Shown one piece after another: positions 6,922 to 52,464 of a stretch of 64,000 nucleotides of DNA (its first letter is position 1; each line of letters starts with the position of its first letter). Origin of the DNA: Gemmatimonadaceae bacterium (lineage in GTDB: Bacteria; Gemmatimonadota; Gemmatimonadetes; Gemmatimonadales; Gemmatimonadaceae); contig JAHBVT010000001.1 in the NCBI GenBank assembly GCA_019637355.1, positions 1,643,192 through 1,707,191 of the forward strand, in the 5' to 3' direction. The translations under genes and the position numbers were made by a program. The notes under the pieces were generated by a model. That model saw only the letters and a list, made by a program, of their open reading frames with translations. It was not told the origin of the DNA and made no database searches.

Positions 6922-8937
<2,016 letters not shown>

Positions 8938-8982
8938 GCTAGATGATGGGCGTGGGGGTGGGGGGGCGCTAGCCTCTCCGGC

Positions 8983-37132: not shown

Positions 37133-37601
37133 GGATGCCCCCGCGCACGCTGCGCACTTCCAGCGCACCCGTGGCGACGTCGAAGCTCGCGGTGCGTCCG
37201 CTCGCCCCGCCCGTCTCCGCCGCGACGATGCCGATGCCCGCTGCCGCCACCGCCCGCCGCGCGGCCGCCACGTTGCGCTCGCCCACCTGCTGGCCGCCGC
37301 TGCCCAAGAGCGTACCGAACAGCGCGGCCCCGCCGGCGAGCTTGGCCTCGTACGGCCCCGGCGCGCCGGCGCGCTTGAGCGCGTCAATGAGCATCGGCAC
37401 CGCCGTCGTCGCGAAGCGCGCCGCATTGCTCGCGTCGCGCGCGGCACTGGGGTCCGGCAGCAGGATATGCGCCATCCCGCCCACCATCCGCTGCCGGTCG
37501 TAGAGCGTCACCACCACGCAGCTGCCCAGCCCGACGGCCACCAGCCGCCCCGACCCGCGGGCCACCGCGAGATTCGCGATGCGCACGTGCTGCGTACTCA
37601 C
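37122..37601 (-). CDS. cheD: Chemoreceptor glutamine deamidase CheD
   Basis: 159 residues from GTG 37601 (GTGA overlap with cheR). The catalytic cysteine lies in VGLGSCVVVTLYD, the histidine in GGMAHILLPD, and the conserved KLAGGAALF motif follows. In Bacillus, CheD deamidates receptors and binds CheC; cheC is also present in this cluster. Confidence 0.94.
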   Translation of the reverse strand: MSTQHVRIANLAVARGSGRLVAVGLGSCVVVTLYDRQRMVGGMAHILLPDPSAARDASNAARFATTAVPMLIDALKRAGAPGPYEAKLAGGAALFGTLLGSGGQQVGERNVAAARRAVAAAGIGIVAAETGGASGRTASFDVATGALEVRSVRGGIRVL

Positions 37602-38428
37602 GCCACCTTCCGGAAGATGCGCTGGCGTTGGTCCACGGCCGTGAACAATCGCCGTGCGGGACCGAGCATCGTTTCCACCTTGCCCAGCACGAGGATGCCG
37701 TGCGGCACCAGCGTCTCGTGGAAGCGCTGGAAGATCCGCTCCTGTCCCTCGCGGTCGAGGTAGATGAGGAGGTTGCGGCACACGATCAAGTCACAGCGCT
37801 GCACCGGCGGCGTGTCGAGCAGCAGGTCGCGCCGCTGCACCTGCACCAGCGAGCGTAGCTCGGGCAGGGCGGTGAGCGGCGCCTCGCGCGTGAAGTAGCG
37901 CACGCGCAGGTCAAGCGGCATCTCCTGGAACGCGCTCTCGGGATACGTCGCCGCCGCAGCCGCGCGCAGTGACCCGGGGTCGATGTCCGTGCCGATCACC
38001 AGCGTCCGCTCGAGACGCCGCCGCGTACCGCTGCGCTCGGCGTGCCGGTGCAGCAACGCCGCCAGCGTGTAGAGTTCCTCGCCCGACGCGCAGCCCGCGC
38101 TCCACGCGGTGAAGCCGTTGCCGGCCGCCTCCCACAACGACGGCAGCACCGCGTCCGCCAGTGCATTCCAGACCTCGGCGTCCCGGTACAGCCGCGTGAC
38201 GTTGATCGTGAGCACGTCCATCAACTGGTCGTACTCGGCGGCGTCGCCCGAAAGCAAGGCGGCGTACTCGCCGTAGCTCGCCACGCCGCGGGCACGCATC
38301 CGCACCGCCACGCGGCGGCGCAGGCAGCCGTCCTTGTAGTTGCCGCAGGCAAACCCGCGGTCGCGCGCCACTTGTTCGAGCAGCGCGCGGAAGCCGGCTT
38401 CGTCCTCCCCGGCCGCAGGCATCGTCAT
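37598..38428 (-). CDS. cheR: Chemotaxis protein methyltransferase CheR
   Basis: 276 residues. An N-terminal helical domain with NVTRLYRDAEVW, SAM loop SAGCASGEELYTLA, and the acceptor motif VCRNLLIYLDREGQ. Methylates receptor glutamates. The ATG overlaps the upstream DUF4388 gene as ATGA. A second ATG lies two codons later. Confidence 0.95.
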   Translation of the reverse strand: MTMPAAGEDEAGFRALLEQVARDRGFACGNYKDGCLRRRVAVRMRARGVASYGEYAALLSGDAAEYDQLMDVLTINVTRLYRDAEVWNALADAVLPSLWEAAGNGFTAWSAGCASGEELYTLAALLHRHAERSGTRRRLERTLVIGTDIDPGSLRAAAAATYPESAFQEMPLDLRVRYFTREAPLTALPELRSLVQVQRRDLLLDTPPVQRCDLIVCRNLLIYLDREGQERIFQRFHETLVPHGILVLGKVETMLGPARRLFTAVDQRQRIFRKVA

Positions 38429-40041
38429 CCCCCGCGTAGGGCCGCGAGCTGCGTGCGCGCCTCAGGATGCGCGGGGTCCAGCACCAGCGCCTGCTCAAAG
38501 GCAGCGCGTGCCGCATCGGCATCACCGGTGTCCAGCCGCAACGCGCCCAGTCGCGCCCACACCTCGGGGCCTAATGTCTCGTGGTGGCGCACGGCGTGCG
38601 AGTAGGCGTCCATCGCGCCGGCGCGGTCGCCTTGCGCCAGGAGCAAGTCGCCGAGGTTACGGTGCAGCGGCGCGAGGCCGGGATCCTCCTGCAGGCCGCG
38701 CGTGATGGCGTGATGCGCCTCGTCCGCCCTCCCCAGCGCCATCAGCGCCACGGCGAGGTTGTTGTGCAGCGCCGCCGCGTGTGGATGCGCATCGCAACCT
38801 TCCTGAAGCAGCGCCACCGCCTTCTCGAGCTGCCCGGCCAAGGCCGCCGCCAGTGCCGCTTCGTGGAACCATACCGCCGAGGGCGCCCGCGTGCCGTACA
38901 GCGGACGAGCGTGCATAAAGTGCGCGTCGGCCTCGGCAAAGGCGCCACGGCGCAGCGCGAGTACGCCGAGCGAAAGGTGCACGCTCGGCTCCGCGTCCCC
39001 GCCCCGCGCCAGCGCCGTCTCGAGCGCCGCCTTGGCTTCGTCCTCACGCCCGAGCCGTTCGAGCGCCAACGCGAGATTGTGGTGCACCGAGGGCTTGGCG
39101 CCGCGCTGGCGCGCCGCCGCTTCCAGGTGCGTCAGGGCCTCGCTCCACTTGCCGAGGCGCAGGTGCGCCACGCCCAGCTGGAAGCGCGCGCCGAGGTCTT
39201 CGGGTCGCAGCTCCGTCACGCGACGGAACTCGCGCACGGCTTCGTCGAGCATTCCGGCGCGGAAGAACGCCACGCCCAAATTGCGATGCTCCTCGACGCG
39301 CACGTCGGCGGCCACGTCTTCCGGGGCCTTGGACCGCCCCACACGGTGCAGATAACCGGCCGTGGCGAGGCCGAACAACGCCTTGCCCACCTCGAACTCC
39401 ACGAGGCCGCTGGCGTCCACCAACGCCGTGACGTCGGCGCGGCCGTCGATCAGCGGCAGGAGTGTCTGCTGCTCGGTCGTGAGCTTGGGCTCGCTCTCGG
39501 CGAGGCGGCGGCGGTCGAGCTCGAATACCACGTCAAAGGACGGAATCTTCTTCTCGATTAGGCTCCACTCGTCCACGCGCCGCGCGCCTTCGAGCAGCAG
39601 CGACTCCGGGTTGATGGCGACAAGGAAGTCCTGCTCGTCGGGCCGGATGTCGGACTCGAAGTTGAACGTGCCCTCGGCCCAGGTGAACAGGAAGAACACC
39701 GCTTCCTCGATCTGGATGCGGATCTGCGCGTGCAGCTGCTCGCGCGTGATCATCCCTTGGGCCACGAGCAGGTCGCCGAGCCGCTGGCCACGTGCCTTCG
39801 CCTGCAGGGCGATGGCTTCGTCGAGTTTCTCCTGGCTGAGCACGCCGCCCTTCACGAGGATGTCACCGAGGCGGTCGCGCCGGTTGACGATGCTCGCGTA
39901 GCTGATCTTGCCCTTGTCGAAGTAGATCGACCCGAAGTTCGAGCGATGCGTGACGGACAGGCAGCCGCTCTTCTTGCCCATCGAGAGCAGCTGCAGCACA
40001 TCGGGCAGCGACGCTTCCTTGAGGGAGCCCTTGATCGCCAT
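38425..40041 (-). CDS. DUF4388 (PATAN-like) protein with C-terminal TPR repeats
   Basis: 538 residues. The N-terminal DUF4388 domain (about 1-100: GSLKEASLPDVLQLLSMGKKSG, FDKGKISYA) is found in signalling and gliding proteins, usually in polarity contexts. A middle region (about 100-235) resembles the second DUF4388 protein here (SLLLEGARRVDEWSLIEKKIP). The C-terminal half is TPR repeats. A cytoplasmic scaffold is likely (inference). Confidence 0.85.
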   Translation of the reverse strand: MAIKGSLKEASLPDVLQLLSMGKKSGCLSVTHRSNFGSIYFDKGKISYASIVNRRDRLGDILVKGGVLSQEKLDEAIALQAKARGQRLGDLLVAQGMITREQLHAQIRIQIEEAVFFLFTWAEGTFNFESDIRPDEQDFLVAINPESLLLEGARRVDEWSLIEKKIPSFDVVFELDRRRLAESEPKLTTEQQTLLPLIDGRADVTALVDASGLVEFEVGKALFGLATAGYLHRVGRSKAPEDVAADVRVEEHRNLGVAFFRAGMLDEAVREFRRVTELRPEDLGARFQLGVAHLRLGKWSEALTHLEAAARQRGAKPSVHHNLALALERLGREDEAKAALETALARGGDAEPSVHLSLGVLALRRGAFAEADAHFMHARPLYGTRAPSAVWFHEAALAAALAGQLEKAVALLQEGCDAHPHAAALHNNLAVALMALGRADEAHHAITRGLQEDPGLAPLHRNLGDLLLAQGDRAGAMDAYSHAVRHHETLGPEVWARLGALRLDTGDADAARAAFEQALVLDPAHPEARTQLAALRGG

Positions 40042-41943
40042 CTAGCGGTGCTCCTCGATCAAGCGTCCCGTGAGGTCGGCCCATTCCCAGACCACGCGCT
40101 CGCGGTCGAGAAAGGTGCGGTCGCCCGCGCTCGCGGCTGCGGCCGGCGGCGCCACCGTCGCGCTGGCGGCGGCACCGAGACCGAGCTCCTGACGCGCCAG
40201 CACTGCGTCGAGCGCAACGCCCAGCGCCTCGGCCGCGGCGGCGAGGCGGTTCACCACGCCGATGAGCTCGCGCACGCTGCGTACCGTCGGGTCGCAGATG
40301 ACATCCAGCAGCTCCGGCGGCGCCGGACGCCCGAGGCCGGCGAGGAAGCGCGCCGCCAGCTTCTCGCGCAGCGGGCGGTCCGGCGGCTGGATCTCGGCGA
40401 TGAGACCGCCTTCGAAGCGCGAGCGCAGACGCGCCGCCAGTTCGGGGATCTCCGACGGCAGGCGGTCGCTGGAGAGGATCACCTGCTTGCCGTCCTCGAT
40501 CAGCGCATTGAACACGAAGAAGAACTCGTCCTGCGTGCGTTCCTTGCCGGCGAGGAACTGGATGTCGTCGATCACCAGCGCATCGGCGGCGCGGTAGCGG
40601 GCGCGCCAACGCTCGACCGTGCCCTGTTGGATGGCGATGATCAGTTCGTCCACGAGCGCCTGTGCGTGCACGCAGGCCACCGTCACCGCGCCGTCGCTGC
40701 GCGCGCCGATCGCGTTGCCGATGGCGTGCACCAAGTGCGTCTTGCCGACGCCGCTGGGGCCGGTGACGAGCAGCGGGTTGTAGCGCGTGCCCGGCTGTGC
40801 AATGACCGCATCCGCCGCGTGCACCGCGAGCTGGTTGGCCGAGCCGACGTCGAAGCCCTCGCGCGTGAAGCTCGGGTTGGGCCCGCCGGGCGGCATCTCG
40901 CCGCTCAGGGCCTTCTCGAGCAGTTCCTCGGCTTCGGCCAGGCGCTCCGGATCGCGGAACAGTTCGTGGCCGCCCAGCGCCGCGTCCACGGCCGTCGCCT
41001 CGCGCTCCAGCACGCGCAGGTGGTCCACGGCTTGCACATAGGTGGCGATCAGGCCCTGCACGTCCGGCTCGCGCGGCAGCGCCAGCGCCCGTTCCAGCAC
41101 CGCCGTGCGGTAGCCCTCGCCCTTCCAGTACGCGACCACCTCGCGCAGGCGGACCTGCCAGGTCTCCACCTGCTCCTGCACCACCGCGGCCACGTCAGAG
41201 AGGAAGGACAGGAACTCGCCCGAGGGCCGCAGCGCGTCGGAGCCGCCCGATGGCGTCAGCGTCTTGCGCGCGCCGCCCGCGCCCATCGACTCCTGCGCGA
41301 TCCACTGATTGAGCAGGCCCTGCAGTTCGCGCACGCTGGCGATGCCCCGCTCCGCAAGACGCTGCAGCGCGGCGTCGGGCACGTCGAGTTCGCGCTCGGC
41401 GATGGCCGCGCGCAGGATGGCCACGCGCGCCTCGAACTCCGGCAGGCTCACGTCCACCACCAGCCCACCGGCCATCCGCGAGATGAGGCGCTCGTCGACG
41501 TCGGCGATCTCGCTGGGCGGCCGGTCGCTGGCGCAGACGATCTGCCGATTGCCATCCTGCATCACGGTGAACAGGCGCAGCAACTCGGCCTGCATCTCGC
41601 GGCGGCCGGTGACGAACTGCAGGTCGTCGAGCAGCAGCAGGTCCACACGGCCGAGGCGATGCCCGAAGGCCGACGTCTCGCCCGCGCTCACGGCGGCGTG
41701 GTACTGCTCCGAGAACTCGTCGAGCGTGAGCGCCAGCACCTCGGCGCCGGGCTGCAACTGCTGCAGCAGGTGCGCCGTGGCCGTGAGGAGGTGCGTCTTG
41801 CCCAGGCCCGACCCGCCGTAGATGAACAGCGGGTTGTAGGTCGTGCCTGGCGCCTCGGCCACCGCACGCGCCGCCGCCGCCGCGAGGCGGTTGGACGCGC
41901 CGACGACCAGGCGTTCGAACGTGAGCCGGGGATCGAGCCGCAT
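40042..41943 (-). CDS. Tandem DnaA-type AAA+ ATPase without the DNA-binding domain
   Basis: 633 residues carrying two DnaA/Hda-like AAA+ modules. First: Walker A GGSGLGKTH (about 43-51), Walker B LLLLDDLQF (about 102-110), sensor I CASDRPPSE, and ISRMAGGLVVDV. Second: Walker A GPSGVGKTH (about 395-403), Walker B ALVIDDIQF (about 455-463), SSDRLPSE and LRSRFEGGLIAEIQPPD, near DnaA box VII consensus. The linker (about 220-360) is helical. DnaA domain IV (helix-turn-helix) and the N-terminal domain I are absent. So it is not the initiator. Both ATP sites look intact. It lies between mglA and a DUF4388 gene with no gaps, so a signalling or polarity role is likely (inference). Confidence 0.88.
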   Translation of the reverse strand: MRLDPRLTFERLVVGASNRLAAAAARAVAEAPGTTYNPLFIYGGSGLGKTHLLTATAHLLQQLQPGAEVLALTLDEFSEQYHAAVSAGETSAFGHRLGRVDLLLLDDLQFVTGRREMQAELLRLFTVMQDGNRQIVCASDRPPSEIADVDERLISRMAGGLVVDVSLPEFEARVAILRAAIAERELDVPDAALQRLAERGIASVRELQGLLNQWIAQESMGAGGARKTLTPSGGSDALRPSGEFLSFLSDVAAVVQEQVETWQVRLREVVAYWKGEGYRTAVLERALALPREPDVQGLIATYVQAVDHLRVLEREATAVDAALGGHELFRDPERLAEAEELLEKALSGEMPPGGPNPSFTREGFDVGSANQLAVHAADAVIAQPGTRYNPLLVTGPSGVGKTHLVHAIGNAIGARSDGAVTVACVHAQALVDELIIAIQQGTVERWRARYRAADALVIDDIQFLAGKERTQDEFFFVFNALIEDGKQVILSSDRLPSEIPELAARLRSRFEGGLIAEIQPPDRPLREKLAARFLAGLGRPAPPELLDVICDPTVRSVRELIGVVNRLAAAAEALGVALDAVLARQELGLGAAASATVAPPAAAASAGDRTFLDRERVVWEWADLTGRLIEEHR

Positions 41944-41944
41944 C

Positions 41945-42544
41945 CTAGCCGGTCCGCCCCGCGCTCAGCTTGCGCAGCACCTGCTCCGAGATGCCGCGCA
42001 GCGTCTCGAACACGCCAGCGCCGTGCAGCGCGTCGGCGGTGAACGACGGCACGCCGCGGAAGTTGATGGCGTCTTCGAGCTCCGGCACCGGCGTCCGCAA
42101 CTCGGCCGGCAGGTCGATCTTGTTGTACTGGATCACCAGCGGCATCGTGCGCGCGTCCACGCCCTGCTCGGCGAGGTTCTCGTGCAGGTCCTGGAAGCTC
42201 TCGATGTTCTCCTGCAACTGCCGCGCCTGCGAATCGGCGACGAACACCACGCCGTCGGCGCCCTGCAGCACCAGCTTGCGCGTCGTCTGGTAGTACACCT
42301 GCCCCGGCACCGTGTAGAGCTGGAAGCGCGTGGTGAAGCCCGAGATCGTCCCGAGGTCGATCGGCAGGAAGTCGAAGAACAGCGTGCGGTCCGTCTGCGT
42401 CGCCAGCGAGACCATCTGGCCCTTGCGGTCCGTCGGCACCTGCCCGTGGATGTAGTGCAGGTTCGTCGTCTTGCCGGACCGTCCGGGCCCGTAATAGACG
42501 ATCTTGCACGTGATCTCGCGCGTGGCGTAGTTGACGAGGCTCAC
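41945..42544 (-). CDS. mglA: MglA-like Ras-family GTPase
   Basis: 199 residues from GTG 42544, giving the canonical MglA start NYATREITCKIVYYGPG. P-loop GPGRSGKTTN (about 17-26), switch region TVPGQVYYQTTRKLVL with the MglA-type PGQ instead of DxxG, and specificity motif NKIDLP. In Myxococcus, MglA-GTP marks the leading pole and drives motility. It follows the roadblock genes and precedes the double DnaA-like ATPase. Confidence 0.94.
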   Translation of the reverse strand: MSLVNYATREITCKIVYYGPGRSGKTTNLHYIHGQVPTDRKGQMVSLATQTDRTLFFDFLPIDLGTISGFTTRFQLYTVPGQVYYQTTRKLVLQGADGVVFVADSQARQLQENIESFQDLHENLAEQGVDARTMPLVIQYNKIDLPAELRTPVPELEDAINFRGVPSFTADALHGAGVFETLRGISEQVLRKLSAGRTG

Positions 42545-42578
42545 GAGGCGGTCCCGCGAAGGTGGTCGATGGCCGGCA

Positions 42579-43052
42579 TCAGCCCCTCCCGAAGAGCTGG
42601 GCGAGGTTGCGATTGAGGTCCTGCTCGAAGTTCTCCGCCAGCGCCGGGCTCGCGTCCGTCGCCGCCGGGGCCGCCGCGGCGATATCCGCGTACAGCTCCT
42701 TGAGGTACAGCTGCACGATGCCCAGCGAGCTCTCGGCGTCGAACACCGCCAGCACCAGCAGCCGCTGTGCCCCCGCCGGCACCTGCCCGAGATAAATCTG
42801 CCGCGCCTTGCCGGCGTAATGCAGGCCGGTGAACGGTTTGCCGTCCACCATCCCGCCCAAGTGCTCGGCCGAGGCGTTGATGGCCGCCGAGAGCGCGCAG
42901 GCCGTCTGCACATCCAGCGAGCGCTGGAAGCCCACCTGCGCCAGCACCTGCCCGCTCGAGTGCATCAGGACGGCGAGCTCCAGCCGCGCTTCGTCCACGA
43001 ATCGCTTGAGCGGTGCATCCGCCCAGCCGATGGTCATCGTGTGGCGGATCAT
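42579..43052 (-). CDS. mglB: Roadblock/LC7 protein, probable MglB-type regulator
   Basis: 157 residues from ATG 43052. FVDEARLELAVLMHSSGQVLAQVG (about 17-40) and ALSAAINASAEHLGGMVDG are typical roadblock folds, with a further C-terminal helix (ENFEQDLNRNLAQLF). MglB is the GTPase-activating partner of MglA; adjacency to mglA supports that. ATGA overlap with the upstream roadblock gene. Confidence 0.85.
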   Translation of the reverse strand: MIRHTMTIGWADAPLKRFVDEARLELAVLMHSSGQVLAQVGFQRSLDVQTACALSAAINASAEHLGGMVDGKPFTGLHYAGKARQIYLGQVPAGAQRLLVLAVFDAESSLGIVQLYLKELYADIAAAAPAATDASPALAENFEQDLNRNLAQLFGRG

Positions 43053-43390
43053 AGACTCCCCGCCGCCTTCAGCAGGTCCACGCGCAGCAGCCCGAAGTTG
43101 GCGCGCGTATCGGCCACCGCCACCACCACCAGGCCGTTGCGGCCCGCCGCGAGCACGCGGCCCCGCTCCGCCTCGAGGTCGCAGAAGCTCGTGCCGCCGA
43201 AGCCGGCGCTGGCCGCCGCCCGCGAGGCCTTGCGGAACAGCGACGCCGTGAGCGCCGCGAAGGCCGCCGTGTCCACGCCCACCTGCGCGGTCGCGTCGAC
43301 CACGATGCCATCTTCCTCGGCGACCACGAGACAGGCCGTCACGCCACGATGCCGCGTCACGCTGGCGAGGATCGGAGCGAAGGCGCTCAT
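43049..43390 (-). CDS. Second roadblock/LC7-domain protein
   Basis: 113 residues from the ATG at 43390 (ATGA overlap). A single domain: FAPILASVTRHRGVTACLVVAEEDG, AFAALTASLFRKASRAAA, LLRVDLLKAAGSL. Likely forms homo- or heterodimers with the neighbouring roadblock proteins. Confidence 0.8.
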   Translation of the reverse strand: MSAFAPILASVTRHRGVTACLVVAEEDGIVVDATAQVGVDTAAFAALTASLFRKASRAAASAGFGGTSFCDLEAERGRVLAAGRNGLVVVAVADTRANFGLLRVDLLKAAGSL

Positions 43391-44178
43391 CGTCCGCCTC
43401 CGAGCCATTGCGTCGCCACCTGCGCGCACTGGTCGAGCGTGCGGCGCACGAGTCCCAGCGGCGTCTCGCGCGGCGCCGCAATGAGCGTCACGCCGTCGCC
43501 CGTCGGCGCCATCACGACGGTGGCCGCCTCGGTCTCGATGGCGATGCGCGTCCACGCCCCGAGGCCGAAGTGCCGCATCGCGCGGTCGGCCTCGTCGCTC
43601 ACGCCGGAGAGATGCGCGCCGATCACCGCGCCGAGGTCTTCGCCGTCGGCCGTGTGGTAGTGCCCCGCCACGACCAAACCGTCGGCATCGAGCAGCAGGG
43701 CCACCTGCCCCGTCTCGCCGAGGGACCCGTCGAACAATCCGCCCGCGGCTTCGGCGGCGCTGGCGGCAGCAGGTGCGGCGGTGAGCTGCTGCGACTCCGC
43801 ACGTGCGACGTGTAGCGCTTCCCAGGCCGCTTCCAGCGCCGGGTCTCCGGGCGTCGCGGCGCGCGCCTTCGCGAGGTGCTGCTCGGCCTCGTCCCAACGC
43901 CCCTGGCGGTAGCAGAGGAATCCCATCCCGCGGTGCGCGGCGCCGAAGTCCGCCGCAATCGCCATCGACGCCTGCCACGCGCGCTCCGCGGTCGGCTCAT
44001 CGCCCATCGCCAGCGCAATGCGCGCCACGAGGTCGTGCACGTCGGCGCGGTGCGCGTGGCGGTCCGCGCCCTTGCGGGCCACCCGCAGCGCGTTGGCGTA
44101 CTCGCCGCGCGCCAGCAACTGCTCGGCCAGGGGCAGGAAGATCAAGCTCGACGGATCCGCCGCCAGCTGCTCGCTCAT
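43387..44178 (-). CDS. TPR-like protein with C-terminal roadblock-type domain
   Basis: 263 residues from ATG 44178; an in-frame TTG at 44199 is an alternative. The N-terminal half is TPR-like (EQLLARGEYANALRVARKG, GFLCYRQGRWDEAEQHLAKA). The C-terminal half (about 150-263: VALLLDADGLVVAGHYH, VIGAHLSGVSDEADRAMRHFG) has roadblock topology. The third roadblock-type protein in a row before mglA. Confidence 0.7.
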   Translation of the reverse strand: MSEQLAADPSSLIFLPLAEQLLARGEYANALRVARKGADRHAHRADVHDLVARIALAMGDEPTAERAWQASMAIAADFGAAHRGMGFLCYRQGRWDEAEQHLAKARAATPGDPALEAAWEALHVARAESQQLTAAPAAASAAEAAGGLFDGSLGETGQVALLLDADGLVVAGHYHTADGEDLGAVIGAHLSGVSDEADRAMRHFGLGAWTRIAIETEAATVVMAPTGDGVTLIAAPRETPLGLVRRTLDQCAQVATQWLGGGR

Positions 44179-44188
44179 CGCCCGGATG

Positions 44189-45169
44189 TCAGTGCTCAAC
44201 GGGCACCTCCCGCTCGAGCACTTCCAGCAGCCGTGTGGCCCCGACCACCGCATCGCGCAGGGCGGCGGCGGAGGGATACTGCGGCGTCGCCTCGATGAAC
44301 GCGCTCCAGGTCGCGATGCCGTCGCTCAGGGCGCCGCGCCGGAAGTAGTCGGCGCCGCGGCGCAGCGCGCTCGGCAGCGCGTCGTGCGGCGTCTGGTGCG
44401 CGGCGCGCCGAGGCTCGCTCGGCAGGGCCACCGGCGTCACCTGCCGCGACGGCTGCCGCAGGATCACCACGCCCGTGCTCACGAGGCCGTACATCACGCG
44501 CGCCACGTCGAACTCGCTCATCGACACCGTCGCGGCGATCGTCCGCAGGTCCGTCTGCCCGTCGATCATCGCCAACACCTTCCACTCCTGCGGCAGCAGG
44601 TCCAGCAGGGCCGGATGGTCGGCGTCGCCCGGCGCGAGGTCGGGAATCACCGAGAGGTTCGGTACGCGGTCCGCGATGCGCGACCACTCGTCGATGCGGC
44701 GCGCCCCCTCCATCAGCAGCGACTCGGTGCCCAGCGGCGCCGAGGCATCGCGCAGCGCGTCGTCGCTCAGGCCTTCGGTGAACCGGAAGTGTCCTTCCGA
44801 CCACGACATCAGCTCGAAGACGACGGCTTCAATCTGCAGGCGCATCTGCCGGTCCATCTCGCGCGAGGTCACGAGACCGAGGCTGACGAGGATCTCGCCG
44901 AAGCGCCGGCGGTCCCCCGTGTCCTGTGCCTCGCGGACGCGCGCGAGGTCGGCGTCCGTCAGGCGCCCCGAGCGCACCAACAGGTCGCCGATGCGATGCG
45001 GGTTGGACCTGATGCTGGCCGAAATCACCTTGCCGTTCTCGAACAGCACCACGCCCTCGTTGTCGCGCAGGGCCGACGTGACCGTGAGCGTGCCGGTCTT
45101 CCGGCTGAGATCGAGCAGCTGGAAGACGTCGTGGATGCCGAGTTCGCGGAGTGGGCCTTCGATTGCCAT
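44189..45169 (-). CDS. DUF4388 (PATAN-like) protein
   Basis: 326 residues. DUF4388 at the N-terminus (GPLRELGIHDVFQLLDLSRKTG, VVLFENGKVISASIRSN), a middle winged-helix-like part, and SLLMEGARRIDEWSRIADRVP, the same segment as in the 538-residue paralogue at 38.4 kb. It lacks the TPR array. The start overlaps the large TPR gene by one base. Confidence 0.82.
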   Translation of the reverse strand: MAIEGPLRELGIHDVFQLLDLSRKTGTLTVTSALRDNEGVVLFENGKVISASIRSNPHRIGDLLVRSGRLTDADLARVREAQDTGDRRRFGEILVSLGLVTSREMDRQMRLQIEAVVFELMSWSEGHFRFTEGLSDDALRDASAPLGTESLLMEGARRIDEWSRIADRVPNLSVIPDLAPGDADHPALLDLLPQEWKVLAMIDGQTDLRTIAATVSMSEFDVARVMYGLVSTGVVILRQPSRQVTPVALPSEPRRAAHQTPHDALPSALRRGADYFRRGALSDGIATWSAFIEATPQYPSAAALRDAVVGATRLLEVLEREVPVEH

Positions 45170-47886
45170 CAGACCTCCGCCTCGGGATCACTGCCTTCCA
45201 ACCGCTGCTGCACCGCCCGCGCCTCGCGGAAGGCGCGGCGGGCGAACTCGCCCTGCGGCTCCAGCTCGGCCACGCGCCGGAAGCAGGCCACCGCCTCGCG
45301 GTAGCGTTCCTGTCGCGCCAACAGCAGGCCTTGGTGAAACACCGCGCCCACGTGCTCGGGATCGAAGCGCAGCACGCGCTGGAACGCAAAGGCTGCATCG
45401 TCGGGTCGGTCGAGGTCCAGCAAGAGTTCGCCCAGCGCCACCAGGCCGTCGAAGCTGTACGAATCGCGCTCGAGAAACTCGATGAGCAGGCGCAGCGCCT
45501 TATCCGGCGCCTCGAGCCGGCGGTGCAGCCCGGCCAGCGCCAAGGTCGCGTCTGCGTAGGTGGGCACGGCGTCGAGCGCGAGCAGCAGTTCGCGCTCCGC
45601 CTCAGAGAAATCCCCGCGCGTGATCAGCAGTTGCGCGAGGTCGTAGCGCACGGCCGCGAAGTCACCATCGATGGCGAGCGCGTGCCGATATGACGAGATT
45701 GCCGCGTCCACGTTGCCCATCGCCTTGAGCACGTTGCCGATGCCACGCAGCACCTCGGCGCGCCCGGGATCGGCGCGGCGGGCGCGGTCGAGCACCTCAA
45801 GCGCAGCTTCCGGATCGCCGCTCTCGAAGCGCGCCGTCGCCACGAGCAGCAGCGCGTCGACGTCCTGCGGCAACACCTCGAGCAATCGCGCGGCGGGCAC
45901 TGCCGCGTCGCTGCCGCGCCCCAGCATCAACAGCGCCTGCGTCTCGCCACGCAGCGCCTCGGGATGGTCCGGCTGGGCGCGGCGCGCCGCCTCGAAGCGC
46001 TCCAGCGCGTCGCCCCAGGCACCCTGTCGGCCAAAGGCCTCGCCCAGCAGCACGTCACCGCGCGCGGCGTCGGCGCCGCGCTGCATCGCGCGCCGCACCT
46101 CGGCCATCGCGCGGTCCACCAGGCCCTTCGAGAGGAAGTCCTCCGCCAGGGCATAGGGATCGACGCCGGCTTCTGCGGCCGGTGCCGGCGTCTCGGGCGT
46201 CGGCTCCAACTGGCGGAAGATCGGCTCGAGGATACTGCTGTCGAACTCGAAGCTCTCCACCCCGCCGCTGAGCCGGTGTTCGCCGCCCAGCTCGGGTACG
46301 ACCGTGAGGTCCACGTCCTCGAACTCGAGGTCGATGGCGAGCTGGAAGGTCTGCGGCGTGTAGTACGGGTCGATCTCCAGCGCGCGCTTGGTCTCGCGCA
46401 GCGCGCCGGCGTAGTCGCCGAGGCTCGTCAGCGTGAAGCTGAGGTTATAGTGCGCCTCGGCGTAGTCGGGCCGGATCTGGATGGCGCGCGCGTATGCCGT
46501 GCGCGCCTCGTCGAAGCGCCGCAGCTCGGCCAACACGAGGCCCACGCCGTTCCACGCCAGCGCTGACTCCGCGTCCGACTCCAGCGCCTGCCGGTAGGCC
46601 TCCAGCGCCAGTTGGAAACGCTTCGCACGCACCAACATCAACGCGAGGTTCAAGCGCGCCTTGGAGAAGCCTGGGCTCGCGTGCAGCGCCTCGCGGAATT
46701 CGTCGATCGCCTCCTCAGGCACGTTGGCGTGGAACAGCGCCACCGCGAGGTTGTTGCGTGCAATCGCGTACTGCGGATCGGCCGCAAGCGCCTGGCGATA
46801 GCTCTCCGCGGCGGCGGCGTGGTCACCGGTCTGGTGCAGCGCCACGCCGCGCTCGTTCCAGAGCTTCGGCGAATCAGCGCGCTCACCCAGCAGTTCGTCG
46901 TACAACCCGATGGCCGGCTGCGGTTCCTTGCGTAATAGGTGCAGCTCGGCCGTCGCCTGCACCACCAGCGCGCGGTCCTCCCCGTGCACCAACGCCAACT
47001 CGTACTCCTTCATCGCCTCGTCCAGCATCCCTTGCTGCCGGAACGCCTGCCCCAGCGTGTAGTGCGCCAGTGGCTCGCCTTCGGCGATCTGCATCTGCTG
47101 CTGCGACTTTCGCGCCTGCCGCCCCGGCACTAGTTGCTCGTACTTCTTGGGATCGTAGTCGTCGAGCGAGAGGTTGGCCTGCGCGCGCGAGAGCGCGGGA
47201 TTCAGCTGTACCGCGCGCTTGCTGGCCTTCTGCGCCTCGTCGTGCTGCCCCATATCGCCGAGCACGAACGAGAGCAGGAAGTGCGCGTCCGGTTGGTCCG
47301 GGTTCAGCTGGATGGCGCGCTGCAGCGAGGTGAGCGCTTCGTCGAAGGCACCCTGGTTGTAGAGCACCTCACCGACGTAGAAGTGCAGCAGCCCGCTCTG
47401 CGGGTCCCGAAGGAGCGCCGTGCGGAACCAACTCAGCGCCACGCCGAGCCGTCCGACCGCCTTCTCGGCGAGACCGAGCTGGATCATTGTGCCGACGTCG
47501 CCAGGGCGCAGTGCGAGTAGCGCCTGAAACTCGGGGATGGCGTCTTCCGGCTGACCGAGCAGGGCGAAGGCGCGGCCGAGCTCCCAGCGCGTATCGCGGT
47601 CGTCCGGCCGCTGCCGCAGCCGTTCACGCAGCTCGGCCACGCGGCGGTCGTAGTAGCCGGTGTTGAAGTACGCGATCTCCAGGTTGCGCTGCGCGACCTG
47701 CATCTTCGGGTCGAGTTCGAGCGCCTGGGTGAAGGCGTCCACCGCCTCTTCGTAGAGGCCCTTGGTGAAGTACAGCACCCCAAGATTGTTGTGCGCCCCC
47801 GCGTCGGCCGGATCGATGCGGCGCGCGAAACCACGCAGGACCTCGCGGTCCCGCTGCGACACGGCGGCGGTGGACGGTCGGTTCAC
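45169..47886 (-). CDS. Large TPR-repeat protein
   Basis: 905 residues, almost entirely TPR-type repeats (GVLYFTKGLYEEAVDAFTQA, NLAVALFHANVPEEAIDEFR, NLSFTLTSLGDYAGALRETK), with one non-repeat interruption (about 525-585). No signal peptide or membrane helix. Such arrays assemble multiprotein complexes, and it sits between cheC and the DUF4388 gene. Four-base overlap with cheC. Confidence 0.85.
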   Translation of the reverse strand: MNRPSTAAVSQRDREVLRGFARRIDPADAGAHNNLGVLYFTKGLYEEAVDAFTQALELDPKMQVAQRNLEIAYFNTGYYDRRVAELRERLRQRPDDRDTRWELGRAFALLGQPEDAIPEFQALLALRPGDVGTMIQLGLAEKAVGRLGVALSWFRTALLRDPQSGLLHFYVGEVLYNQGAFDEALTSLQRAIQLNPDQPDAHFLLSFVLGDMGQHDEAQKASKRAVQLNPALSRAQANLSLDDYDPKKYEQLVPGRQARKSQQQMQIAEGEPLAHYTLGQAFRQQGMLDEAMKEYELALVHGEDRALVVQATAELHLLRKEPQPAIGLYDELLGERADSPKLWNERGVALHQTGDHAAAAESYRQALAADPQYAIARNNLAVALFHANVPEEAIDEFREALHASPGFSKARLNLALMLVRAKRFQLALEAYRQALESDAESALAWNGVGLVLAELRRFDEARTAYARAIQIRPDYAEAHYNLSFTLTSLGDYAGALRETKRALEIDPYYTPQTFQLAIDLEFEDVDLTVVPELGGEHRLSGGVESFEFDSSILEPIFRQLEPTPETPAPAAEAGVDPYALAEDFLSKGLVDRAMAEVRRAMQRGADAARGDVLLGEAFGRQGAWGDALERFEAARRAQPDHPEALRGETQALLMLGRGSDAAVPAARLLEVLPQDVDALLLVATARFESGDPEAALEVLDRARRADPGRAEVLRGIGNVLKAMGNVDAAISSYRHALAIDGDFAAVRYDLAQLLITRGDFSEAERELLLALDAVPTYADATLALAGLHRRLEAPDKALRLLIEFLERDSYSFDGLVALGELLLDLDRPDDAAFAFQRVLRFDPEHVGAVFHQGLLLARQERYREAVACFRRVAELEPQGEFARRAFREARAVQQRLEGSDPEAEV

Positions 47887-48509
47887 GCGACCCGGATGGC
47901 GGTGAGCATTGCGCGCAGGGAGACGGCGTCCGGCAGCAACAGGAAGAATCCGCGCAGCGGTGTCGCATCATTCTGCAGTTGGAACTCGCTCTCCACACAG
48001 AACACGTGCGAGGCACCCTCGGCCGTGGCGACGTACGTGGAGCTGAGCACCGCATCGCTCATATCGATCGCCAGCTCCGGCGGCGAGTTGAGGATGCGCA
48101 TTCCGAGGAACTCGGCCAACGCGTTCAGGTACGCCGCCGAAAGGATGTTGCCCGCCTCCTTGAGCGCGCTCTCCTCGATCGCCCCCAGCGCGGTGACCTC
48201 GCGCCCGCCCATCATCAGGCCGGCGATGCGATGGGCAATCGGCTGCGGGAACACCAGCAGCGTGAGGCCCGTGAGATCGCCGGCGATGCGGATGGCCACC
48301 GCCGCCACCGGCTCCTCGCCCTCGGCGATCTGGTTTGGCACGTCCTCGATGGCTGCGACGTTGATCTGCGGCACCGAGATCATGATGCGCTGCCCGGTGA
48401 TCTGGCTGAGCGCGGTGGCGGCGTGCCCCGCCCCGATATTCGCGACTTCGCGCAGCGCGTCGAGCGCCGCACGCGAGAGCGACCGTACGTCGTCCGGAGG
48501 ATGCGTCAC
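47883..48509 (-). CDS. cheC: CheY-P phosphatase CheC
   Basis: 208 residues. Both CheC/FliY/CheX active-site helices are seen: ALREVANIGAGHAATALS (about 17-34) and IEESALKEAGNILSAAYLNAL (about 112-132), each with the required Glu and Asn. CheC dephosphorylates CheY and is stimulated by CheD, which is also encoded here. Overlaps cheA by four bases. Confidence 0.93.
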   Translation of the reverse strand: MTHPPDDVRSLSRAALDALREVANIGAGHAATALSQITGQRIMISVPQINVAAIEDVPNQIAEGEEPVAAVAIRIAGDLTGLTLLVFPQPIAHRIAGLMMGGREVTALGAIEESALKEAGNILSAAYLNALAEFLGMRILNSPPELAIDMSDAVLSSTYVATAEGASHVFCVESEFQLQNDATPLRGFFLLLPDAVSLRAMLTAIRVA

Positions 48510-50542
48510 AGGAGACTCCCCACGTCCACGATGAGTGCCGGTGCCCCGTCCGCGAGGATCGTCGCGCCGCTGAACAGCGCGAGCCCGTCGCGAGCACCGT
48601 CGAACGCCTTCACCACGATGTCCTCCTGCGCCGTGAGTTCGTCTACCACCAGCGCCGCGCGCCGGTCACCCCGCTCAATCACCACGATCTCCTCGTCCAA
48701 CGGGGTCTCGGCCTGCAGGTGCACTACCTCGCGCAGGCGCAGCAACGGCAAGACTTCGTCCCGCAGCACCAGCATCTCGCGGCCTTGGACCGGCCGTAGC
48801 ACGGCCGTCCCGCGCTCCAGCGTCTCGCGCACGTGCGTCAGCGGCAGCGCGTAGCGCTCGGCACCCACGCGCGCCAAGAGCGCGCGGACGATCGCCAGCG
48901 TCACCGGCAGACGCAGCATCACCGTCGTGCCCGCGCCCGGCGTCGTGACGAGTTCCACTGACCCGCCCAGCGCACGCACGCGACTGATCACTGCGTCCAC
49001 CCCCACGCCACGTCCGGACAGTGCCGTCACCGCCTCGCTGGTGCTGAAGCCCGGCTGTGCGATGCAGCGCAGCAGCGCGTCGTCGTCCAGCCGCTCCGTC
49101 TCCGTCGGCACGAGTCCGCGCTCGATCGCGCGCTGCAATACCTTGGCGCGGTCGATGCCGCGTCCGTCGTCACGCACCGTGATCACCACCGCGTTGCGGT
49201 CACGCTGCGCTGAGAGCGTGAGCCGTCCAGCTCGCGGCTTGCCTGCCGCCTCGCGGTCGGCCGGCGGCTCCAGACCGTGGTCCACCGCGTTGCGCAGCAG
49301 ATGCACCACCGGCTCGCCGATCTCGTCGAGCACCGAGCGGTCGAGCTCGATCTCCTTTCCCTCGATCGCGAAAAGCACGTCCTTGCCCACCTGTCGCGCC
49401 ACGTCGCGCACGAGGCGCGGAAAGCGATCGAACACCTGACCCACCGGCACCAGGCGGCTCGTCATCACTTCGGACTGCAGGTCCGCGATCAATCGCGTCG
49501 CATCGTCCATCGCCGCCGCCAGCGCCGCGTCAGCGGTGCCGCGCGTGAGCGCCTGCAAACGGCCGCGCACGATCACCAGCTCGCCGACGAGGTCCAGCAG
49601 CGCATCCAGCCGCGCCAGCTCGATACGCACGTGCCGCGCCCGCGGGGCTACGCCACGCTCGGCCGGCCCCAGCGTGTCGGCCACTCCGAGCACATCGCTG
49701 ACGCGGCGCATCGGGTGCTCGCCGGTCTGCGCCGCCGCCTCGCCGGCCAGCTCCACGGTCACCGCGCGCGAGGGGCGCGCGTCCGCTCGCTCCTGCGCCG
49801 GCTCGCTTGGGCGCGCTTCGGCACGCGCCTCGGCGCGTTCCTCAACGCGTACCGTGGCCACATCGCCGGCGCTGCGCACCGCCTGCTCCAGTTCGGCCAC
49901 ACCCGCCGCGGTCTGCATCCGCACGCTGAAGGTCTGCGGTGACGTCGCCGCCTGCAGTTGCTCCGCAGACGGCACGCAGCCCAGCACCTCGCCCAGCGCG
50001 CGCAGCCGCTGCACCGCCATAAACGCGCGCACGCCCGGCAGTACCGCGGTCGGCTCCTGCACCACGTGCACCAAGGTGCCCGGGCCGTCGAGTGGATCGA
50101 GCGCCGCCGCCAGCAGCCGCACCGCCCCACTGGCGCGCATCACCGGGAACTCCGCCGTCGACCGCCCGCCCGCGATGTCGTGCAGACGCTCCAGCGCCTG
50201 CTGCATCGCCGGCGTCATCACCGCGCCGTCGCGGGAATGCTCAATGCCGTCCTCGAGCGCGTCAGCCGCGGCGAACAGCGCGTCCATCAGCTCGGCGCTC
50301 ACGGACTGGTCCCCGTCGCGCACCTTGGAGAGCAGCGACTCCAGCTCGTGCGAGAACTCGGCGACGGCCACGTAGCCCATCGTCGCGCTCATTCCCTTGA
50401 TCGTGTGCACACCGCGGAAAATCGCGTCCACGGCTTCGGCGGGGTCATCCCCCTGCTCGATCGCCAACAGCGCGCGATTGATGGCCGAGAGCTGTTCGCG
50501 GCTCTCGGTGCGGAACAGTTCGGCGTAACGCGAGGGATCCAC
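48506..50542 (-). CDS. cheA: Chemotaxis histidine kinase CheA
   Basis: 678 residues. Hpt domain with the phosphorylated histidine in GVHTIKGMSAT (about 45-55), an intermediate region rich in Ala/Glu (about 230-300), the dimerisation and ATPase domains (LLRNAVDHGLE, VRDDGRGID, LSGRGVGVDAV), then a CheW-like regulatory domain (ALLARVGAERYALPL to the end). No receiver is fused. CheY lies 30 bases upstream. Confidence 0.96.
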   Translation of the reverse strand: MDPSRYAELFRTESREQLSAINRALLAIEQGDDPAEAVDAIFRGVHTIKGMSATMGYVAVAEFSHELESLLSKVRDGDQSVSAELMDALFAAADALEDGIEHSRDGAVMTPAMQQALERLHDIAGGRSTAEFPVMRASGAVRLLAAALDPLDGPGTLVHVVQEPTAVLPGVRAFMAVQRLRALGEVLGCVPSAEQLQAATSPQTFSVRMQTAAGVAELEQAVRSAGDVATVRVEERAEARAEARPSEPAQERADARPSRAVTVELAGEAAAQTGEHPMRRVSDVLGVADTLGPAERGVAPRARHVRIELARLDALLDLVGELVIVRGRLQALTRGTADAALAAAMDDATRLIADLQSEVMTSRLVPVGQVFDRFPRLVRDVARQVGKDVLFAIEGKEIELDRSVLDEIGEPVVHLLRNAVDHGLEPPADREAAGKPRAGRLTLSAQRDRNAVVITVRDDGRGIDRAKVLQRAIERGLVPTETERLDDDALLRCIAQPGFSTSEAVTALSGRGVGVDAVISRVRALGGSVELVTTPGAGTTVMLRLPVTLAIVRALLARVGAERYALPLTHVRETLERGTAVLRPVQGREMLVLRDEVLPLLRLREVVHLQAETPLDEEIVVIERGDRRAALVVDELTAQEDIVVKAFDGARDGLALFSGATILADGAPALIVDVGSLL

Positions 50543-50978: not shown

Positions 50979-51479
50979 TCACGCGTCGGCGAGTGCCGCG
51001 CGCTGCAGGGCCGCCACATCCATCACCAGCGCCGCGCCGTCGGGGAGCCGCACGAGGCCGCGCACCGCCCCCTGGGCCGACCGCGCTTCCTCCACGCCTT
51101 CCTCCGCCGCTGCGGCGCGAGCCACTCCGTCCACCGCATCCACCCGGAGCCCGAACCGACGCTCCGCTAGGTCCACGACCACCACCGGTCCCGACGCCGG
51201 CGCGCCACCCAGCCGCACCGCCAAGTCCATCACCGTCAACACCGTCCCACGCACATTCACCAGCCCAGCTATGAAAGACGGTGCGCCGGGCAGTCGCGTC
51301 ACGCCCCGAACCGTCAGGACCTCCCGGGTGGACAGCAAAGGAATCGCCACCCGCTGGCCGCTCGCGCGCGCCACCAGGTACCGAGCCTCGTCCCCCTCCC
51401 CGTCCGCCCCGGCTTCCAACCCGGGGACGACCGGCAGGTCAGTCGGTTCCTCTATAGAAGCCAAAGTACTCCAGGGCAT
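50979..51479 (-). CDS. cheW: CheW coupling protein
   Basis: About 166 residues if started at ATG 51479, which overlaps the rluD 3' end by 41 bases and lacks a clear ribosome site. A TTG start after the rluD stop is also possible. The CheW fold is clear: LVARASGQRVAIPLLSTREVLTV, FIAGLVNVRGTVLTVMDLAVRLG, VVVDLAERRFGLRVDAVDGV. First gene of the chemosensory block. Confidence 0.88.
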   Translation of the reverse strand: MPWSTLASIEEPTDLPVVPGLEAGADGEGDEARYLVARASGQRVAIPLLSTREVLTVRGVTRLPGAPSFIAGLVNVRGTVLTVMDLAVRLGGAPASGPVVVVDLAERRFGLRVDAVDGVARAAAAEEGVEEARSAQGAVRGLVRLPDGAALVMDVAALQRAALADA

Positions 51480-52464
51480 CGGGGTGGGCAAACAGCGACG
51501 GGTCCTCCGCCGCCCGGGCCAACGAGCGCCGGAGGTCCTCCGGTAGCGGGCAGCGCAGGTCCATCGGTGCCCCAGTGAGCGGATGTGTAAAGACGAGCCA
51601 GGCGGCGTGCAGGAAATGCCGCTTCGGCGGCAGGTCCAGCAGCCGCCGCCCTCCCCCGCCTCCGTAAGTATCGTCACCAGCCACCGGGTGGCCGATGCTC
51701 GTCAGGTGCACGCGAATCTGGTGCGTGCGCCCGCTGTGCAGGTCCGCCCGCAGCAGGTCCACCGCGTCGAAGCGCGCCAGGCGCGTAAAGTCCGTGCGCG
51801 CCGCCCGCCCGTCCTGACGCACCGCCATCCGCGTGCGGTCGTTCGGGTCCCGCGCGAGCGGCTTGTCGACGGTGATGCGGTCTTCGGTCAGGTGGCCCCA
51901 GGCCAGGCAGGCGTAGCGCCGCTTCACCGTGCGCGCCGCGATCTGCGCCGAGAGCGAACGATGGGCCCGGTCCGTCTTGGCGACGACCAGCAGTCCGCTG
52001 GTCTCTTTGTCGAGCCGGTGCACGAGGCCGGCGCGCTCGGCGCCGCCGCCTTCCGCCAACCCCTGCCCGCGCCCCATCAGCGCGTTCACCAGCGTCCCAG
52101 TCCAGTTCCCTGGCGCCGGATGCACGACCATCCCCGCCGGCTTGTCCACGACGACGAGGTCCTCGTCCTCGAACACGACCTGAATCGGGATCTGCTCGGG
52201 CACGACCTCGCGTCCGGGCGGCGTCGGAATCTCAACCACCAGTGCCTCGTGGCCTTCCACGCGGTGGCTCGCGCGCTGCACCGCGCCGTCGAGCGTGACC
52301 TTGCCGGTGGCGATGAGCGTCGCCGCCTGCGTGCGCGAGCACCCGCAGCGTCCGGCCACGACGAGATCCAGTCGCGCGCCGCGCTCGCCGCGCTCGAGCG
52401 TGAACGCGTGCCGCCCCGGCGTCAGGGGCTCGCGCACGTCAGGCCGAGGGATGGGCGTCGGCAT
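51439..52464 (-). CDS. rluD: RluA/RluD-family 23S rRNA pseudouridine synthase
   Basis: 341 residues. An S4 RNA-binding domain (RLDLVVAGRCGCSRTQAATL, about 30-50) is followed by the catalytic domain with the Asp in HRLDKETSGLLVVAK. Position after lspA matches the Bacillus ylyB location. Overlaps lspA by 26 bases. Confidence 0.94.
   Translation of the reverse strand: MPTPIPRPDVREPLTPGRHAFTLERGERGARLDLVVAGRCGCSRTQAATLIATGKVTLDGAVQRASHRVEGHEALVVEIPTPPGREVVPEQIPIQVVFEDEDLVVVDKPAGMVVHPAPGNWTGTLVNALMGRGQGLAEGGGAERAGLVHRLDKETSGLLVVAKTDRAHRSLSAQIAARTVKRRYACLAWGHLTEDRITVDKPLARDPNDRTRMAVRQDGRAARTDFTRLARFDAVDLLRADLHSGRTHQIRVHLTSIGHPVAGDDTYGGGGGRRLLDLPPKRHFLHAAWLVFTHPLTGAPMDLRCPLPEDLRRSLARAAEDPSLFAHPDALEYFGFYRGTD

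Follow-up and report, generated by a model that had tools for sequence, protein, structure and literature searches.

A gene with two DnaA-type ATPase modules and its operon

The window (i.e. the whole 64,000-nucleotide stretch of Gemmatimonadaceae DNA that was analysed) carries a minus-strand gene for a tandem DnaA-type AAA+ protein of 633 aa (40042..41943), identified from its ORF, its homologs and two Pfam matches to Bac_DnaA with a score of 340.6 bits against a cut-off of 23. A chance ORF or frame artefact was rejected since the frame is kept in homologs down to ~37% identity. Opposite the gene, a frame of 770 aa is open on the plus strand (39730-42042) and is most likely an antisense artefact of high GC content. 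Both modules, AAA1 (residues 1-221; 41281..41943) and AAA2 (residues 356-588; 40180..40878), were assigned as DnaA domain III with its lid from Pfam, motifs and the structural model, and Walker A, Walker B, sensor 1, box VII and sensor 2 were found in both alike. The AAA1 residues are GGSGLGKTH (Walker A, K49), DD106-107 (Walker B), R152/R156 (box VII) and VREL (sensor 2); the AAA2 residues are K401 (Walker A), DD459-460 (Walker B) and R505/R509 (box VII). AAA2 also retains KERTQ (467-471), the region reported to touch single-stranded DNA in the Aquifex DnaA-ssDNA structure. By both sequence and fold, the closest PDB chains are domain III of DnaA from B. subtilis (8bv3) and T. maritima (2z4r). 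A sequence-only reading of this DNA had proposed two complete DnaA-type modules with DnaA-specific box VII-like sequences. The duplicate Bac_DnaA match, full motif sets and fold matches bear out the first proposal; the second holds for the box VII arginines of both modules but not for their surroundings, which read RxxGGL instead of the RFxWGL typical of genuine DnaA.

The chain begins at domain III, domain I being absent, and a Pfam search of the 633-aa protein gave no match to DnaA_N or to the helix-turn-helix (HTH) domain Bac_DnaA_C. What follows AAA2, by Pfam and the model, is no more than a disordered linker and a single short helix, with no domain IV HTH. The lack of domains I and IV, as read from the sequence, is thus upheld, and a C-terminal HTH, which that reading had named beforehand as evidence against itself, was absent in the domain search. 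An AlphaFold model had a mean pLDDT of 84 and a pTM of 0.50, so that the domains are reliable and their mutual arrangement is not. This structure prediction, proposed in the sequence-only reading as a check, contained the two lidded AAA+ modules and added a helical middle domain and, after a disordered linker, a final lone helix, neither of which had been described. The middle domain (MID; residues 242-352; 40888..41220, from alignments and the model) was modelled with a pLDDT of 87 and had no credible relative among Pfam families, PDB sequences or PDB folds. Its first helix holds motif 1, EFxxFLxDxxxxVxxxVE (residues 243-260; 41164..41217, from alignments). The C-terminal tail motif (residues 612-633; 40045..40110, from alignment and model) is the predicted lone helix, with the consensus (D/E)(K/R)xVxWEWxDxxxRxIEExR in the alignment for the window protein. 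All of these features lie on the minus strand. In the monomer model, motif 1 and the tail are unpacked helices of low pLDDT.

One ordinary dnaA gene is present as a separate copy elsewhere in the genome, far from the tandem gene. The tandem protein nevertheless passes the NCBIfam DnaA equivalog TIGR00362 (466 bits, summed from two stretches, versus a cut-off of 343.9), an annotation trap by which automatic pipelines will label the family 'chromosomal replication initiator DnaA'.

The ATG of the tandem gene lies one base past the stop codon of mglA, and its own stop codon is followed, from the very next base, by the ORF of a DUF4388 (PATAN)-TPR protein of 538 aa (38425..40041, Pfam); a position directly between these genes in a chemosensory operon had been correctly read from the sequence. 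The mglA gene (41945..42583) encodes an MglA-type small GTPase (Pfam Arf/Ras; P-loop GPGRSGKT, DRTLFFDFLP). Further upstream on the same strand are genes for a Roadblock-like protein, Robl3 (42579..43049; weak Pfam Robl_LC7 match, syntenic), a small protein labelled Roadblock-like, Robl2 (43049..43405; no Pfam match in the window copy, syntenic in most loci), a TPR-Roadblock protein (43387..44253; Pfam TPR_19, Robl_LC7) and, all by Pfam, a second DUF4388 protein (44189..45169), a TPR protein of 905 aa (45169..47886), a CheC/CheX-like phosphatase (47883..48509) and a CheA kinase (48506..50542; Hpt, P2, H-kinase_dim, HATPase_c, CheW). Downstream of the PATAN-TPR gene lie a CheR-like methyltransferase ORF (37598..38428, minus strand) and then CheD, CheB and two CheW genes, to about 35134; CheR, CheD, CheB and CheW were assigned by sequence inspection and synteny rather than by Pfam. 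The three consecutive Roadblock-type or Roadblock-like genes (42579-44253, minus strand), one of them fused to TPR, possibly encode a multi-part GAP for MglA.

The same surroundings recur in other genomes. In most loci the order is CheY-CheA-CheC-TPR-DUF4388-TPR.Roadblock-Roadblock-like-Roadblock-like-MglA, then the tandem gene, then DUF4388.TPR-CheR-CheD-CheB-CheW-CheW-TPR. Of 55 loci, 53 have DUF4388-TPR as the next recognised gene on the downstream side, and 48 have MglA as the closest recognised one upstream; the exceptions include L154 and L156 of family f6, with MglA 1-4 kb away, and a few that arise from overlapping open frames. In f5 (L157, L158 and L165), the tandem gene and DUF4388.TPR form a pair without flanking che or mgl genes, directly after rluD in L165; in g7, MglA, a 70-aa form of the protein (see below) and DUF4388.TPR stand together, and no che gene was recognised in the sequence that was read around them. 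In the window, unlike in f5, the che/mgl block sits between rluD (51439-52464) and the tandem gene. Among the neighbours, PATAN-TPR recurs most constantly, ahead of MglA and Che. The sequence-only reading had placed the gene in a signalling and polarity operon, a setting that stands for the 48 loci with MglA nearest upstream but is less constant than the DUF4388-TPR pairing and is missing from the f5 pair; homologues mostly outside che/mgl neighbourhoods, also named in advance as counter-evidence, were not what was found. Within the PATAN-TPR neighbour, conservation is highest in PATAN and in the stretch that directly follows it, and lower in the TPR part.

Two constant motifs and a variable number of AAA+ modules

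Profiles of AAA1, MID, AAA2 and the tail were used to distinguish four architectures at the same operon position. Most loci have AAA1-MID-AAA2-tail, and this order of modules is fixed across all double forms. A single-AAA form, AAA1-MID-tail, occurs in f9 and f6 and separately in g18, with a degenerate AAA1 in g17 (L153-L156, L146, L147 and L175), and MID-tail with no AAA+ module was found in g16 (L149). In g5, g7 and g8 (L150-L152, L166-L170 and L176-L178), the position is held by a protein of ~70 aa that consists of the first MID helix and the tail only. Loci were taken from genome drafts and read as stop-to-stop frames, so that some ORF starts are uncertain. Gene callers are likely to miss the ~70-codon genes between mglA and DUF4388.TPR (e.g. 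8923-9144, plus strand, in L150). These small genes have plausible starts, with AAGGA upstream of some, and most within-genus pairs had a dN/dS of 0.09-0.35, which shows purifying selection on the ~70-aa form at this range; between-genus distances were saturated and uninformative.

A tree built by quick search from five concatenated neighbour proteins requires 7 changes among the three architecture states. Complete AAA loss accounts for 3 changes, 2 of them forced by well-supported branches, indicating on this tree that the AAA+ modules have been lost completely two or three times independently. Relocation of the modules to another site in the 70-aa lineages was not seen in the three AAA-less genomes checked: G020, G022 and G023 each gave only one match, read as ordinary DnaA.

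Both motifs, EFxxFLxDxxxxVxxxVE and EKxxxxWPxxxxRxIEELR, were kept in 55 of the 55 versions examined, with some drift in f5, f9, g16 and g17, and motif 1 persists in versions without any AAA+ module. The invariant of the family is therefore these two short motifs and not the double AAA+. No other ORF in the window or in six sampled loci carried the tail pattern at its C-terminus. The motifs may be docking peptides, as they are short and constant, have variable linkers between them, persist on their own and stay unpacked when the monomer is modelled.

Full-length matches at E<=1e-60 were obtained in 209 of 395 sampled Gemmatimonadota genomes, and MID, which also detects single-module forms, in 236 of the 395. 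Searches with MID of 297, 141 and 77 genomes from three other phyla gave two weak partial matches and nothing convincing. A contig scan, in which the named relatives were Gemmatimonadaceae and Gemmatimonas MAGs, was swamped by ordinary DnaA. Among the phyla sampled, the family has so far been seen only in Gemmatimonadota. Several members of the window's genus with small genomes (1.8-2.3 Mb) lack the tandem gene and also a close cluster-type MglA, having at most a more distant MglA paralog. A second MglA paralog, ~60% identical, is present in G000 and in most Gemmatimonadota genomes, also where the operon has been lost. No plasmid match covered 80% of the query, and the listed matches look like ordinary dnaA. 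A defence system was rejected as an explanation, PADLOC giving generic P-loop matches only.

Evolution of the two ATPase modules

In a tree built by quick search, AAA1 together with the domains of single-module forms, AAA2, and true DnaA fell into three separate clades with SH-aLRT values of 98-99. The module of the single forms is thus AAA1, and AAA2 was gained or lost whole. Duplication of the ordinary dnaA gene was rejected, as that gene is separate in the genome and the modules branch apart from DnaA. A recent internal duplication was likewise unsupported because AAA1 and AAA2 are separate deep clades; either AAA1 or DnaA could have been the source of AAA2.

The nucleotide-binding motifs (Walker A, Walker B, sensor 1, the box VII arginines and sensor 2) are intact in both modules throughout the window's genus. 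Within-genus dN/dS (NG86) was 0.10-0.20 for AAA1 and 0.11-0.25 for AAA2, and >1 for the first linker. Such purifying selection on both modules indicates that neither is a chance or decaying duplicate in the window's lineage. Elsewhere, degeneration takes two directions. The AAA2 P-loop is lost in f5 and in one f4 member, and the lid in f4 and f5, with box VII retained; the f5 AAA2 without a P-loop keeps RLRSRFEGGL, as if it were a finger donor to AAA1. Conversely, L052, L061, L160 and L161 have an AAA1 that has lost box VII and kept its P-loop, with the AAA2 P-loop also kept. These patterns suggest that the roles of nucleotide site and arginine finger are divided differently in different lineages. 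The KERTQ pattern is lost from AAA1, and from AAA2 in other families. The single-AAA forms of L154 and L156 (f6) have lost the box VII arginine.

Candidate mechanism, rival readings and known systems

The known roles of DnaA-type AAA+ modules are in starting replication and in controlling its start, and in DnaA the bound ATP is read through a contact with box VII of another module. In the tandem protein, as in DnaA, ATP in AAA1 and/or AAA2 would be sensed by the box VII arginine of a different module, either in cis or on a neighbouring molecule. The reading that we prefer, and to which we give about even odds, is that the protein serves the PATAN-TPR/MglA module as an adaptor with two motifs, and that an initiator-type ATPase gates its clustering. 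Its essential parts would be motif 1, at the start of MID, and the C-terminal WP....R.IEELR tail, to which one or two DnaA-type AAA+ modules are fused in most Gemmatimonadota that carry the adaptor. We infer docking of the motifs on the adjacent PATAN-TPR protein, and probably also on MglA or close to it. PATAN-TPR is the likeliest motif partner as it is the only neighbour common to nearly all versions, even those without mgl and che; since its TPR part is less conserved than PATAN, docking of the peptides on TPR is not favoured over docking on PATAN. The AAA+ modules would act as an ATP-dependent assembly switch: the ATP-bound, oligomerising protein would cluster the signalling module, at a pole of the cell or a chemosensory array for instance, and hydrolysis would disperse the cluster. 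The broader proposal, held tentatively and at a little under even, is that an initiator ATPase has been repurposed as an ATP-controlled assembly switch on an adaptor that ties PATAN-TPR to MglA and the chemosensory system, with the module added, doubled, half-disabled and discarded in different lineages and the adaptor kept throughout. The switch may act on MglA or pili, and the output is probably surface motility or pili, by analogy with Myxococcus, where type IV pili are under the control of MglA and a TPR effector (PMC11580455), and from the six genes for secretion or pilus motors (PF00437) in the window's genome, two of them adjacent. Two features limit the generality of the switch: AAA-less versions show that some lineages can do without ATP control, so that the AAA part may do something less general, and loss of the box VII arginine or P-loop from one module in several lineages implies that there is no uniform ATP cycle for all members.

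The f5 and f4 proteins, in which AAA2 has lost its P-loop or lid but kept box VII while AAA1 keeps everything, would also be explained if the two modules formed an intramolecular pair, with AAA2 as a built-in arginine-finger donor or activator for AAA1 in a closed, self-timed ATPase. The constant AAA1-MID-AAA2 order of the double forms agrees with such an arrangement. However, single-AAA forms would be left without a partner and the asymmetry is reversed in L052, L061, L160 and L161, and we regard the pair as unlikely; equally unlikely is its corollary, that the pair remodels MglA or PATAN-TPR without larger oligomers. In several lineages AAA1 and AAA2 have repeatedly been lost or have degenerated, which could instead mean that the modules are largely structural or decaying passengers, with function residing only in the motifs and ATP binding no longer important. 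This is improbable in view of the low dN/dS (~0.10-0.25) and fully intact nucleotide motifs of both modules in the window's genus, and of the full-length matches in about half of the sampled Gemmatimonadota genomes.

A coupling of polarity to replication, as had been suggested from the sequence, would have the protein co-assemble with DnaA or bind the origin and so link polarity or chemosensing to chromosome replication. The closeness of the modules to DnaA domain III and the KERTQ of the window protein's AAA2 speak for this, but the protein has neither domain I nor a domain IV HTH; it has no double-stranded DNA-binding domain, and nothing is known to tie it to oriC or the clamp; KERTQ is not kept in AAA1 or in the AAA2 of other families, the gene lies in a signalling operon far from dnaA, and some lineages keep the operon without AAA modules. 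We therefore consider this coupling very improbable, and that part of the sequence-only reading was not sustained. Its more general suggestion, an ATP switch or scaffold with a use outside replication, fits the missing HTH and the synteny but has to be recast around the two motifs, as the AAA+ modules number two, one or zero. Gated clustering of the adaptor remains our preferred reading, and the modules resemble an ATP switch that was attached to a small signalling adaptor and can be taken off again. What is new here is the modularity of the gene, i.e. MID, the tail and two, one or no AAA+ modules at the same locus. A DnaA-type module without its DNA-binding part, single or in tandem, is a regular component of a Ras-like GTPase/PATAN/chemosensory operon across the phylum. 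The double, single, none and 70-aa series at one position separates the essential (two motifs) from the optional (ATPase), and this natural series makes function directly testable by swapping versions.

In comparison with known systems, the tandem protein shares with DnaA domain III the fold, Walker A/B, sensor 1, box VII arginines, sensor 2 and the helices before Walker B. It differs in having two modules per chain, RxxGGL in place of RFxWGL, a helical middle domain, a C-terminal tail and a signalling operon, and in lacking domains I and IV; from the missing domains, separate branching and signalling context, it is not a DnaA. With Hda/HdaA it shares a DnaA-type AAA+ without a DNA-binding domain, and differs from it in its two modules and in having MglA and PATAN as operon neighbours. 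Even counting both modules, the Hda model TIGR03420 gave 149.6 bits against a cut-off of 194.8, so that by score the protein is not Hda, and inspection of the N-terminus (MRLDPRLTFERLVVG) found no N-terminal beta-clamp-binding motif of Hda. The IstB/DnaC/DnaI helicase-loader AAA+ proteins have weak similarity in the P-loop core, but score far below the DnaA match, and the locus offers no transposase or helicase-loader context. No precedent for DnaA-type proteins in mgl or che clusters was found in the open-access literature. PATAN genes had already been noted in a survey to lie near some mglA genes (PMC4316618), and in Myxococcus the TPR protein SgmX is an MglA effector with PATAN proteins among its candidate partners (PMC11580455); both sources cite a PATAN paper of 2006 by Makarova et al. 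The Myxococcus MglA-SgmX(TPR)-PATAN modules are a close parallel in content, with one network that links MglA, TPR, PATAN and Roadblock proteins to a chemosensory system (PMC11580455, PMC4316618). No DnaA-type ATPase or two-motif adaptor is described there, and in Gemmatimonadota the genes form one contiguous operon.
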